37,410 nt of DNA, taken from NCBI GenBank assembly GCA_020351915.1, contig CP070673.1, positions 3,971,021-4,008,430 on the forward strand. The letters are read 5' to 3'. Positions within the stretch are counted from its first letter, which is position 1. Each line of letters begins with the position of its first letter. The translations under genes and the position numbers were made by a program. Under the pieces are notes generated by a model. That model ran no database searches and was not told where the DNA came from. It saw only the letters and a program-made list of their open reading frames with translations. Of the stretch, positions 10,303 through 15,201 are shown in pieces. This DNA comes from Deltaproteobacteria bacterium (GTDB lineage Bacteria > Desulfobacterota > DSM-4660 > Desulfatiglandales > B25-G16).

Positions 10303-10755
10303 CTACGCCTCAGTTACGGCTATAACCTCAACCTCCAACACCAAATCAAGATGAGACAGCCTGGCGACACCAAGTAAGGTCATAGGTGGAAGCTTGTCGT
10401 TTGGCACGCCGTTGTCAGCAAACCATTTATCACGAATCCTGGCACCCCTGGTCATGAAATGATGCATATGCTCCTTCACGACATAGATTCTTTCACACAC
10501 AATATCGCTGGCCTTGGCCCCTGCTGCCCCTAGGGCATGTTTGAGGTTGGCATACGCCAGTTCTGCCTGAGCCTTCATACTATCTGGTACCACTATCCTT
10601 CCGCGGTCATCGTATGCTACTTGCCCGGCGATAAATATGAGGTTCGCGCCTGGGATTTTCACTTTGCATATCGGTGTCCATGGTGCTCGCGCTCCCTTGG
10701 TGTAAGGATAGTCCGTTTCCCATACACTGCCTGTGCCAATCAGTTCCCTTTCCAT
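10303..10755 (-). CDS. RidA/YjgF-family protein lacking the catalytic arginine
   Basis: ATG at 10755 is preceded by AAAGGAG. 150 residues, slightly longer than canonical RidA (about 128). The YjgF fold is recognisable: NLIFIAGQVAYDDRG, AYANLKHALGAAGAKASDIV, and the terminal strand GVARLSHLDLVLEVEVIAV. Canonical RidA deaminates reactive enamines and imines with an arginine in a P-A-R-S/T context; here that motif is PPMT, so the arginine is replaced by methionine. RidA-type deamination is therefore doubtful, and a different hydrolytic or binding role on a pathway intermediate is more likely. It is the first gene of the minus-strand unit that continues with the two CoA-activating enzymes. Confidence 0.88.
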   Translation of the reverse strand: MERELIGTGSVWETDYPYTKGARAPWTPICKVKIPGANLIFIAGQVAYDDRGRIVVPDSMKAQAELAYANLKHALGAAGAKASDIVCERIYVVKEHMHHFMTRGARIRDKWFADNGVPNDKLPPMTLLGVARLSHLDLVLEVEVIAVTEA

Positions 10756-11553: not shown

Positions 11554-11657
11554 AGCTTCACTAAAAGGGAGCAGTGCCGAGCAGGTGCGCAAGGGAATTG
11601 GAGAGGAGAGCTTTTATCAATAAACCGACTATTCCAAATCTTGAAAGGAGGCTTAAA

Positions 11658-12077
11658 ATGGCAAGGGAAATCATTCGATCAGATGAGTTGTGGACACCCA
11701 TATGGCCTTACTCCTATGGCACCAGAGTCACAGGGGGAACACTTCTTTTTATGGCAGGTGCTATATCAGTGGACAAGAACGGGAACACGGTGGGCAAGGG
11801 CGATATGAAGGCACAGATCAGACAAGTTGTGGAGAATATCAAGATAGCCCTTAAAGCAGCCGGTGCTGCGCTGGGGGACATCGTCAATATGAGGATATAT
11901 ACCACGGATGTCGATCAAATTATGAGCCTGGCGGAGTGGCGCTGCCAGAATTTTCCTGAGCTTTGGGGCGGTAAACCGACAGCCCAGGAGGCCCCTTCAT
12001 CGACCCTGGTTGGAGTGACGAAGCTTGGATACGATGGGGGCATGGTGGAGATTGAAGTCGTCGCCCATCTGAAATAA
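11658..12077 (+). CDS. Second RidA/YjgF-family protein, also without the catalytic arginine
   Basis: ATG at 11658 follows AAAGGAGG; 139 residues, close to family length. The family features are TLLFMAGAISVDKNGNTVG, VVENIKIALKAAGAALGDIV, MRIYTTDVD and the final strand MVEIEVVAHLK. At the position of the substrate-binding arginine the sequence reads APSST, so serine replaces it. Together with the other copy (Met at this site) this indicates a non-canonical Rid subgroup. It is transcribed away from the first copy and converges with the AOR unit. A substrate related to the Mo-hydroxylase or racemase-like proteins is possible but unproven. Confidence 0.88.
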   Translation: MAREIIRSDELWTPIWPYSYGTRVTGGTLLFMAGAISVDKNGNTVGKGDMKAQIRQVVENIKIALKAAGAALGDIVNMRIYTTDVDQIMSLAEWRCQNFPELWGGKPTAQEAPSSTLVGVTKLGYDGGMVEIEVVAHLK

Positions 12078-12173: not shown

Positions 12174-12407
12174 TTACCCACCGCCGATTATTGTCTCAAC
12201 TCGGACCTCGAGGAAGTCCCTGTCCTTGTAACGATCTTGGGAAGCCAGCTGAACGAGTTCCTCATAGGAACGCATCACTTCCCCTTCCACAGCAACGAGT
12301 ACATCGTAGTTGAACAGGAAATAGGGGGCCTGCTCAAAGTCGAGAATTTCCCGGCTGGGCTGCCCATCAACCCAATGAGTGACCTTTAATTTGGGAAACC
12401 TTGGCAT
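12174..12407 (-). CDS. Small ThiS/MoaD-like protein ending in Gly-Gly-Gly
   Basis: 77 residues; ATG at 12407 with AAGGA upstream. The C-terminal half (VLVAVEGEVMRSYEELVQLA, then DRDFLEVRVETIIGGG) follows the same order as the C-terminal half of ThiS: a strand, a 'not-self-start' helix, D-x-[IL] strand, and a terminal di-glycine that receives sulfur as thiocarboxylate. The N-terminal half (KLKVTHWVDGQPSREILDF) is shorter than in ThiS and less convincing. It lies downstream of AOR on the same strand, where a molybdopterin/tungstopterin sulfur carrier would make sense. The alternative is an unrelated small AOR accessory protein. Confidence 0.55.
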   Translation of the reverse strand: MPRFPKLKVTHWVDGQPSREILDFEQAPYFLFNYDVLVAVEGEVMRSYEELVQLASQDRYKDRDFLEVRVETIIGGG

Positions 12408-12533
12408 TGCTCAAATTCCTTACTGGCGTCGCTTGTTACCATATCTTGGAATGCAGAAGTATGCTGAACCTCCCCCAAAACCTGGTCTCCTGCGATGCTG
12501 TGGTCCTTTCCTAGGCCTCATTAGAATAGGTTT

Positions 12534-12570
12534 CGTCTGAGGAACCGCCCTCAGACGTCACAGAGGCGGT
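12534..12570 (-). promoter_or_regulatory. Overlapping alternative hairpins between AOR and the GGG protein
   Basis: CGTCTGAGG (12534-12542) pairs perfectly with CCTCAGACG (12549-12557). ACCGCC (12544-12549), which forms the loop of that hairpin, is also complementary to GGCGGT (12565-12570). The two helices are competitive or form a pseudoknot. The element lies in the 240-nt gap between two same-strand genes and could tune expression of the downstream small protein, or act as a weak terminator. Confidence 0.4.
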
Positions 12571-12647
12571 CATCCTAAGGTCTTTTGATCTTTTTTCGAC
12601 CCGAGTCCTCCCGGAAAAGCCAGCCCTGCAGTATGCCTGGTGGGGGT

Positions 12648-14441
12648 TTAACCCACTGCGCCCATCTGCTCCAGTTTCGGAATTACGAAGTCAAGCCCTA
12701 GGCGCTCCAGGTCTTCTCTGGGGGGAAGACCTTCCTCGGTCAGCTTTAGCTCCTCCACATAGTATCTTCTTTTCCGTTCCTCAAATTCGGCCTTGTCCCA
12801 CACCCAGGTCGTGCCGTATTTGTCGGTTATAGGCTCATCGAAGGCACGCGGCGGCAAATAATCGTCCTTTGACGGGTGGTATCCTTCCCTGAGGCTGACG
12901 CACCTGTTGAAATAGTAATTCCTCAGAGCAATGCCCCTGACCTCCTCCACATTGAGATTCCACCCGCATACAGCATTTAGAAATATACGGTAAGCCTCAT
13001 ATTCGGAACCCCATATCTGGATGAAGGGTGGAAGGGCAAAAAAACAGCACGTCGCCGACTCCTGCATAGTTGCACTTATACCGGCACCCATGCGAGCCCC
13101 GGTATGGCTCGTGCCGAAAATGAGGCCCCAACCGACATGCTTGTTCCGGACATCGTAGGTTGGCGCCGCGCATCCGTGAACCTCAAAGGCGTGCCATTTA
13201 GACTGCTCGCCGAAGACCTCATAGGCGCGGCGGAACCCTTCGGCCAGAGCAGCCGGAGCTCGGCCCTCTTTGTATGCAATTTTCTTCAGGAGTTCGCAGG
13301 TCGCCTCTACACTGCCCCATTGGAGGTCAATACCCCCGAGGTCCTCTTTGCTGATGATGCCATGCTCGTAGAGATCCATGGCCCAGGCCACGAGTCCGCC
13401 GAGTTCTTCGCCATCCATCCCGAGCTCATCTTCCAGAGATGAGATCTCTGTCATCTCTTCATACCCTACCATGATGTTGGCATTGAACCCTCCCATGTTG
13501 TCGTGCCGAAACTCACCGCCGAAGGCTCCCCTCTCGCTGTTCTTGAAGAAAGGGACAAAGCAAGAGGCCGCACACCCAGGGCAACCGTCTGTCCAGGCGA
13601 AATATTTCAAATCATGTTCCAAAGAATTGCTTTTCTCGACGATCTCGTGGTAGCCGAAATGATTGTTCTTGATTCCTTCTGCGGCATACCGGAGCAGATA
13701 GGGGGGCGATTGATAATGGCCCCAGCGACTCTCGCTGAGCTTTCGTAATGCTGTTTTGGGGCTCGTCGCGTAGGTACTGAAAAGCTCCCAGACTTTCCGA
13801 TGATCCGCATATAAGGGACCCTTTGTTCCACGAACTGCAATGGCTTTCAGGTTCTTAGAGCCCATCACCGCTCCACACCCCCATTTGGAAGCACTGTGAA
13901 CGAACTCGGTGGTTGCGTTGGCGTATCTTACCAAATTCTCGCCGGCAGGGCCTATGCACAACACCCCAAACATCTCGCCCGTCTCTTCATTCAAACGATC
14001 TCTCAGGGTGACCTCGGTGTCCTGCTTCCACTTGCCCCACAAGTCCGAGGCATCTCTGATCTCTACCTGATCATCAGAGACATAAAGGTAGACCGGTTTT
14101 TCCGCTTTGCCCCTGATCAGTATCCCTGCATTATAATGCGCCTTGATAATCTCGTCGCCGATGTAACCAGAAACACTGCTTCTGCCTGCCCATCCTGTCA
14201 GGGGGGATTTGAAACTCAAGACCGTTTTCGTTCCTATGATACCGGTCAGAGGCCCCACGCCAATGTGCAGGATATTTTCCGGGCCGAGGGCATCCGCACC
14301 CTGAGGGACCAGGTCCCATATCAGCTTGTTGGCAAGCCCTCTCGCACCCAAATAGAGTTTAACGTCTTCGGTTACGTCTACAACGCGACTCTCCTTTGTT
14401 GTTAAGTCCACTTCCAGCATGCTCATTATGATTTCAGCCAT
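12648..14441 (-). CDS. aor: Tungsten-containing aldehyde:ferredoxin oxidoreductase (AOR family)
   Basis: 597 residues, start at 14441 behind GGAGG that overlaps the end of the upstream ferredoxin gene. The N-terminal domain has the bis-pterin-binding family features (LGARGLANKLIWDLVP, SVSGYIGDEIIKAHYNAGI, GPAGENLVRYANA, SKWGCGAVMGSKNLKAI). The 4Fe-4S ligands are Cys287, Cys290, Cys294 (DGCPGCAASC) and Cys492 (NAVCGW), at almost the same positions as in the Pyrococcus enzyme; Glu310 and His446 match the active-site pair. AOR interconverts aldehydes and acids with ferredoxin, in the cytoplasm. The tight coupling to a polyferredoxin indicates an electron-transferring AOR complex. Whether it oxidises aldehydes or reduces acids cannot be told. 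Confidence 0.95.
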   Translation of the reverse strand: MAEIIMSMLEVDLTTKESRVVDVTEDVKLYLGARGLANKLIWDLVPQGADALGPENILHIGVGPLTGIIGTKTVLSFKSPLTGWAGRSSVSGYIGDEIIKAHYNAGILIRGKAEKPVYLYVSDDQVEIRDASDLWGKWKQDTEVTLRDRLNEETGEMFGVLCIGPAGENLVRYANATTEFVHSASKWGCGAVMGSKNLKAIAVRGTKGPLYADHRKVWELFSTYATSPKTALRKLSESRWGHYQSPPYLLRYAAEGIKNNHFGYHEIVEKSNSLEHDLKYFAWTDGCPGCAASCFVPFFKNSERGAFGGEFRHDNMGGFNANIMVGYEEMTEISSLEDELGMDGEELGGLVAWAMDLYEHGIISKEDLGGIDLQWGSVEATCELLKKIAYKEGRAPAALAEGFRRAYEVFGEQSKWHAFEVHGCAAPTYDVRNKHVGWGLIFGTSHTGARMGAGISATMQESATCCFFALPPFIQIWGSEYEAYRIFLNAVCGWNLNVEEVRGIALRNYYFNRCVSLREGYHPSKDDYLPPRAFDEPITDKYGTTWVWDKAEFEERKRRYYVEELKLTEEGLPPREDLERLGLDFVIPKLEQMGAVG

Positions 14442-14445
14442 CTTT

Positions 14446-15183
14446 CTACCTCCATCCCGGGTTGCCCATACTTTCTCTTTTCAGGGGATACAGTCTCTTT
14501 GCTATCAATTCAGCCTTTTCATCTGCGTGCTTACGCATTGTATCGTGATTCAAGTAATCAAAACGTAGTGATGTGCTCTTGAAATAGAGGGCCCCGTAAG
14601 GACATACGTTGACACACTGAGGGTCCCTGTTGCCGTTGTTCTCGGTGTCGCACAAATCACAGACAATGGCGTTAGGGGAGGCTGAAGGGTAGAACCGTAC
14701 GGCCTCGGCTGAACATGCCTTTCGACATTTCCCGCATTTGACCCCCAAGCACCTCTCCTCATCAACCACCATATGGAGCGACTTCTTGTCAAAGTATATG
14801 GCCGACGGTTTGACGGGGCATGCCTTTTCACACTCCCTCTCTTCATCCTGGCATTGAAGGCAGGTCACCTGGACCGCCTTGGGCAGGGGCAGAAGGTACT
14901 TACGAACCTGTATCCTCGCCAGCTCTTTGTTGATCACCCCAAAGTGTTTCATGGAGCATGCCATCTGACAGATTCCACAGCCCACACATTTCAGTTCCAC
15001 GCACTCGATATAGGCAGGCCCTATGGGGTAAGGATAATTCTCCTTTCCCCAGCCCTTCTCCTCAGCTTCCATGCCATGTTGTGACATGGTATGTCCCTTC
15101 AAGGCATTGAGGGCCGTAAAGGTCTCTGAGCAAAAGGGGCATACATACTTCAATATCACCTTTTCCTTGCTTTCTGGTGCCAC
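14446..15183 (-). CDS. AOR-associated polyferredoxin with N-terminal C2H2 zinc finger
   Basis: GTG at 15183 is chosen because AAAGGAGG lies seven bases ahead; another in-frame GTG at 15201 would precede that site. 245 residues. The first 40 residues form a C2H2 finger, Cys15-x2-Cys18-x12-His31-x4-His36, preceded by KYVCPFC. The rest is a DmsB/HycB-type protein with sixteen cysteines for four 4Fe-4S clusters: CVGCGICQMAC, CLQCQDEERECEKAC, CLGVKCGKCRKAC and CDLCDTENNG...CVNVCPYGAL. It should shuttle electrons between AOR and a quinone-, NADH- or ferredoxin-linked partner. The stop is four bases before the AOR start, so the two are translationally coupled. Finger plus polyferredoxin in one chain is unusual. 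Confidence 0.9.
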   Translation of the reverse strand: MAPESKEKVILKYVCPFCSETFTALNALKGHTMSQHGMEAEEKGWGKENYPYPIGPAYIECVELKCVGCGICQMACSMKHFGVINKELARIQVRKYLLPLPKAVQVTCLQCQDEERECEKACPVKPSAIYFDKKSLHMVVDEERCLGVKCGKCRKACSAEAVRFYPSASPNAIVCDLCDTENNGNRDPQCVNVCPYGALYFKSTSLRFDYLNHDTMRKHADEKAELIAKRLYPLKRESMGNPGWR

Positions 15184-15201
15184 AGTCTTTCCTCCTTTCA
15201 C

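Follow-up and report, generated by a model that had tools for sequence, protein, structure and literature searches.

Carriers and electron-transfer subunits linked to aldehyde oxidoreductases

The association of aldehyde oxidoreductases (AORs) with small carrier proteins has been described several times. MoaD genes were found strictly adjacent to AOR genes, often together with MoeB and with a 4Fe-S ferredoxin listed among the neighbours, and it was proposed that the AOR-adjacent MoaD serves specifically for the tungsten cofactor (Iyer et al. 2006, PMC1779556). AOR-linked MoaD was reported again for archaea in a 2010 survey (PMC2948915), and the aor operon of Aromatoleum contains two MoaD-like genes, AorD/AorE (Arndt 2019, PMC6365974). 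In T. kodakarensis, UblC (TK1065) adjoins an AOR and belongs to a carrier set tested by deletion, and three Ubls of this organism both carry sulfur and modify proteins, with some overlap in what they do (PMC11323500). With regard to electron transfer, AorB of the AorAB enzyme is reached through FS1 and FS2, two of the AorA clusters, and filaments assemble by means of a C-terminal helix (PMC10413684).

The locus described here lies in a window of 37,410 nucleotides, the whole stretch of DNA that was analysed, from a deltaproteobacterial genome (5.09 Mb, one contig, 90.6% complete) that has a Desulfatiglandales MAG among its relatives at the level of the order. It encodes an AOR, a polyferredoxin with a C2H2 finger and a 77-residue protein (77-mer). 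As in the AOR-linked MoaD genes, a small GG-ended protein, predicted to adopt a beta-grasp fold, is found beside an AOR with a ferredoxin in the neighbourhood. However, the 77-mer falls below detection by ThiS/MoaD models, the cluster has no MoeB, and the window AOR belongs to a clade far removed from those AORs of this genome that have MoaD neighbours. Furthermore, the unit resembles AorAB of Aromatoleum aromaticum (8c0z) and WOR5 of Pyrococcus furiosus (6x1o/6x6u) in encoding a catalytic, putatively tungsten-containing subunit together with a four-cluster polyferredoxin, but this polyferredoxin has an N-terminal C2H2 finger and a longer C-terminal extension, no AorC flavoprotein gene is adjacent and the AOR is only distantly related.

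The initial annotation had regarded a dedicated carrier beside an AOR as new, which is contradicted both by the four publications above (PMC1779556, PMC2948915, PMC6365974, PMC11323500) and by six other AORs of this genome. The theme of AOR and carrier is itself old; what is new here is a clade of AORs with a finger-bearing polyferredoxin and, within this clade, a highly diverged GG-ended protein of likely beta-grasp fold.

Organisation of the unit

The polyferredoxin gene (14446-15183, minus strand; 245 aa) comes first, and its GTG start at 15183, the one chosen in the initial annotation, is preferred over the mechanically called GTG at 15201 because a Shine-Dalgarno sequence, AAAGGAGGAAAGACT, precedes it and the orthologue in L024 is also 245 aa long. 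The AOR gene (12648-14441, minus strand; 597 aa) follows after 4 bp, and this ferredoxin-AOR order is retained in five loci. A non-coding gap of 240 bp (12408-12647) then leads to the 77-mer gene (12174-12407, minus strand), which likely has its own ribosome-binding site, TAAGGAATTTGAGCA-ATG. The gap was considered as a repeat and as a structured RNA, and both were rejected, as it is present in a single copy in the genome and its folding is unremarkable (z -1.45).

At the orthologous locus (L024 and L059, which are the same contig) the gap is missing and the ATG of the 77-mer directly follows the AOR stop codon (TAG|ATG). The three-gene, same-strand unit proposed in the initial annotation is confirmed with a qualification: the three reading frames do share the minus strand, but the 77-mer gene of the window lies 240 bp past the AOR stop, and the unit is credible because its orthologue abuts the AOR TAG.

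The neighbours in the window include racemase and arylmalonate-decarboxylase-like proteins, TRAP and ABC-type solute-binding proteins, CoA ligases and two RidA proteins, which suggests acid catabolism. The two RidA-family genes lie a short distance downstream of the AOR unit, one on each strand, at 10303-10755(-) and 11574-12077(+), the second being convergent with the unit and ending at 12077. At the orthologous locus, solute-binding (phosphonate-bd/NMT1-like) genes lie on either side of the unit (L059:132-1124 and L024:1241-2233); these are not found at the window locus.

The aldehyde oxidoreductase

The AOR, a putative tungsten enzyme, matches AFOR_N (PF02730, 206 bits) and AFOR_C (PF01314, 181 bits) far above their cut-offs, and among solved structures the P. 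furiosus AOR (1aor) and WOR5 are nearest to it in sequence. The CxxCxxxC ligand motif of the 4Fe-4S cluster and the distal Cys are present (CPGCAASC at 287 and SATCC at 462). With regard to the second-shell catalytic residues, the Glu of the P. furiosus enzyme is kept in the finger-clade AORs (GGE; GGEF), and the column of its catalytic His holds Met or a gap in this clade, an assignment that depends on the alignment. Since this His has no aligned counterpart, the substrate and the reaction are uncertain, and the latter may differ from standard aldehyde oxidation.

The source genome contains 23 AOR genes. In the AOR tree, the window AOR groups with those of L059 and L058 in one clade (support 1.0), which is sister to the finger-less L051/L092 and far from those AORs that adjoin ordinary ThiS/MoaD genes. 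In a separate AOR clade (L040:7359-9269, L041:9113-10966, L046:3793-5757 and L050:2972-4843), CxxCxxxH replaces CxxCxxxC and the usual catalytic His column is missing; most of its members have GG-ended MoaD-like neighbours.

The polyferredoxin and its zinc finger

The initial reading of this protein as a four-cluster ferredoxin bearing a C2H2 finger was borne out at the level of sequence motifs. Its 16 Cys form four 4Fe-4S motifs and are all invariant across four homologues, and the best matches in the PDB are the WOR5 small subunit (6x1o_B, 3.3e-18) and AorA (8c0z_C, 2e-13). The C-terminal extension of about 40 residues was too poorly modelled by AlphaFold to be interpreted (pLDDT 32 for the polyferredoxin).

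The finger motif, CPFCSETFTALNALKGHTMSQH (C-x2-C-x12-H-x4-H; 15076-15141, minus strand), lies at the N-terminus. Its pattern, C-x2-C-x3-F-x5-L-x2-H-x4-H, has the canonical spacing of classical single C2H2 fingers, including the core Phe and Leu. Unlike those, it scores just below the Pfam cut-offs (zf-C2H2_6 and related models, the best at 22.3 against 25 bits, E 1.3e-4) and it is fused to a redox protein, outside any DNA-binding array. The finger is kept in L024/L059 and in L058 of genome G075 (CPYCEEQFQGLNALKTHLEETH), whose ferredoxin is 57% identical overall, which gives a distribution over three genera of one order. It is missing in the closest finger-less homologues, namely L051, a paralogue in the same genome (AOR 43% identical), and L092, from another class. 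No finger-ferredoxin was found in a search of plasmids with the ferredoxin, and no AOR partner with a zinc finger was found in the open-access literature. Zinc binding is putative, and the finger would most likely serve in docking, as a small module stabilised by zinc that contacts a protein partner or another subunit.

The closest finger-less ferredoxin/AOR pairs (L051:2349-6678 and L092:912-5336) adjoin a TPP-dependent enzyme of the acetolactate-synthase type, suggesting a decarboxylation to an aldehyde that is then handled by the AOR.

A zinc-ribbon protein of about 91 aa (YGKFRCHNPSCM...CPxCGxEYRV...FPRIRGPVWDVN) is conserved beside other AORs of the same order, at L062:3196-3471(+), L064:3027-3302(+) and L066:9624-9932(-). 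It has no Pfam family above cut-off, and its gene abuts or overlaps the start of the AOR, after which a polyferredoxin of 165-168 aa follows. These loci resemble the window in placing a small Cys-rich module beside an AOR and a polyferredoxin, but the module is a separate protein, the AORs form a different clade and the GG-ended protein is lacking. Zinc modules may thus have become associated with AORs repeatedly.

The 77-residue protein

The gene of the 77-mer is not a chance reading frame, because it is under purifying selection between the two copies compared (pN 0.13 against pS 0.76) and 42 of their 62 differences fall at third positions. The sole relative detected is the Desulfatiglandales orthologue (L024), which is 75% identical. 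The Gly-Gly-Gly end reported in the initial annotation is present in the reading frame (tail ...ETIIGGG), and the one homologue found keeps Gly-Gly (AGG): the C-termini are IGGG in the window and IAGG in the orthologue. Ordinary carriers in the source genome also have IAGG tails. Reading frames at L051 and L066 that were automatically flagged as GG-ended are spurious and were disregarded.

A beta-grasp fold is likely for the 77-mer. In the AlphaFold model (pLDDT 79.7), built from a two-row alignment (only two family members are known), strands at 6-13 and 16-22 are followed by a helix at 24-31, a strand at 36-38, helical turns at 48-61 and a strand at 65-71, with the GGG flexible. The expectation of a beta-grasp fold was thus upheld by the prediction. 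The top 50 Foldseek matches of the model are nearly all beta-grasp by description (PB1, UBL, doublecortin or DCX, UBX, bacterial Ubl and SAMP1), at E>=0.02 and with nothing below 0.001.

By sequence, the 77-mer is not recognisable as ThiS/MoaD and kinship is not established. Pfam gave no PF02597 match at E<=10, nor did a six-frame genome search, and searches of Pfam, NCBIfam and PDB sequences returned nothing meaningful; matches to PDZ_6 and RNase III (E 0.03-0.25) were taken as chance. An HMM built on some 35 ThiS/MoaD sequences from the order scored the 77-mer within the range of shuffles (353 and 709 of 3000 scored as high). In a profile-profile comparison, the 35-row ThiS/MoaD profile aligned in register over nearly the full length; 9 of 200 column-permuted controls (tail fixed) did equally well, and the hhalign probability was 7%. 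The description of the 77-mer as ThiS/MoaD-like is supported by its predicted fold and its GG end, and family membership is not shown by sequence. Likewise, the claim that its C-terminal half follows ThiS agrees with the register of the alignment and is statistically weak, given these controls and the single-sequence HMM result.

These results bear on the main rival to a carrier, according to which the 77-mer would be an accessory or assembly subunit that binds the AOR through its beta-grasp surface, in a PB1- or UBL-like manner, without activation of the Gly tail. The best structural matches are PB1 and doublecortin/UBX interaction domains and not ThiS or MoaD, a sequence link to carriers is lacking, and the 77-mer is found only beside the finger-ferredoxin/AOR pair while the genome offers ordinary MoaD carriers elsewhere. 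Yet the Gly-Gly is conserved at the extreme C-terminus and is modelled as a flexible tail past the last strand, which is a hallmark of activated beta-grasp proteins, and an accessory subunit is considered a somewhat unlikely explanation.

Distribution and order of gain

No copy of the 77-mer was found in 17 other genomes of the same family, and a peptide scan of an 85,000-species collection, sensitive to close relatives only, gave one match. When 395 genomes of the phylum were searched with a profile, the hits were at E 0.01-0.05 only; most of them lay within long reading frames or ran through stop codons, and they were attributed to chance. The next closest finger-ferredoxin/AOR pair (L058 of G075) has no copy either. 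Since G075 keeps the finger-ferredoxin and the AOR without it, the 77-mer is not an obligatory or constant partner of the pair, which is the outcome of the survey of AOR neighbourhoods suggested in the initial annotation.

This absence, together with the 240-bp gap in the window, would fit a 77-mer gene that shares no function with the AOR and has simply been inherited next to it. Against this, the start codon of the orthologue comes directly after the AOR stop, and the 77-mer is the sole other gene that the window and the orthologous locus share beside the pair, their flanks being different; a merely inherited adjacency is thus rated as improbable. With regard to history, in the simplest order of events the finger predates the 77-mer, which was acquired later on the branch of the window and L059. 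Alternatively, the 77-mer was lost by L058, and the finger and the 77-mer could have arrived together.

A possible route of sulfur to the cofactor

The source genome encodes about 11 ThiS/MoaD-like proteins, and a neighbour of the PF02597 type lies within about 450 bp of 6 of the 23 AOR genes, all of them other than the window AOR. The initial annotation had proposed a test for an E1 of the MoeB/ThiF type elsewhere in the genome, and E1 enzymes are indeed encoded there (four PF00899 genes, none in the AOR operon).

The favoured reading combines an AOR-polyferredoxin enzyme with a diverged carrier that would be activated in trans by one of the four E1s, probably for cofactor sulfur. The catalytic subunit of a two-subunit oxidoreductase of the AOR/WOR family would oxidise an aldehyde, or reduce an acid, at its metallopterin site, and the four-cluster polyferredoxin, which has gained a single classical C2H2 finger, would carry off the electrons, as its counterparts do in WOR5 and AorAB. 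Of the three lineages with a finger, two also encode, a short way downstream, the diverged beta-grasp protein with a free Gly-Gly at its end. A ThiF/MoeB-type E1 would adenylate its C-terminus, a thiocarboxylate would then form, and the 77-mer would deliver sulfur for the dithiolene of the AOR cofactor, a role already suggested for the MoaD proteins of other AORs. This reading is put forward tentatively, with slightly less than even confidence, because carriers are redundant in the genome, the 77-mer is absent from G075 and it has no sequence kinship with known carriers.

A protein modifier of the SAMP or UblA kind, conjugated to lysines of the AOR or the polyferredoxin, would be compatible with the SAMP1 and bacterial Ubl folds among the Foldseek matches and with the T. 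kodakarensis carriers, one of them AOR-linked, that are conjugated to target proteins (PMC11323500). However, no E1, E2 or JAB peptidase was found among the annotated window genes, and this role is considered very doubtful. A more far-reaching version of the carrier reading seems similarly remote: the 77-mer would found a new ubiquitin-like family for one AOR clade, with the E1 in trans and the finger as docking site in one maturation complex that supplies the AOR on the spot, the finger having come first and the carrier having been recruited to it.

The locus points to more than one pairing of AORs with GG-ended beta-grasp proteins and, one of these being too diverged for current family models, to an under-counting of such carriers. 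Additionally, it is unusual for an electron-transfer subunit to bear a classical zinc finger. If the carrier does serve only one of the 23 AORs in the cell, this would bear on the routing of cofactors among many tungsten enzymes.

MoaE (PF02391), the partner of MoaD in MPT synthase, was not found in the source genome, which is 90.6% complete, and this counts against the carrier reading. MoaE is present in 30 of 30 good genomes of the order, and G081 has two copies, so the absence is probably an assembly gap and loss as a lineage trait was rejected. Elsewhere, a sulfur-transfer island recognised by eye (L093:1-13501) encodes three E1 enzymes, a ThiS-like protein, two cysteine desulfurases, an IscU-type scaffold and a thiouridylase-like protein.
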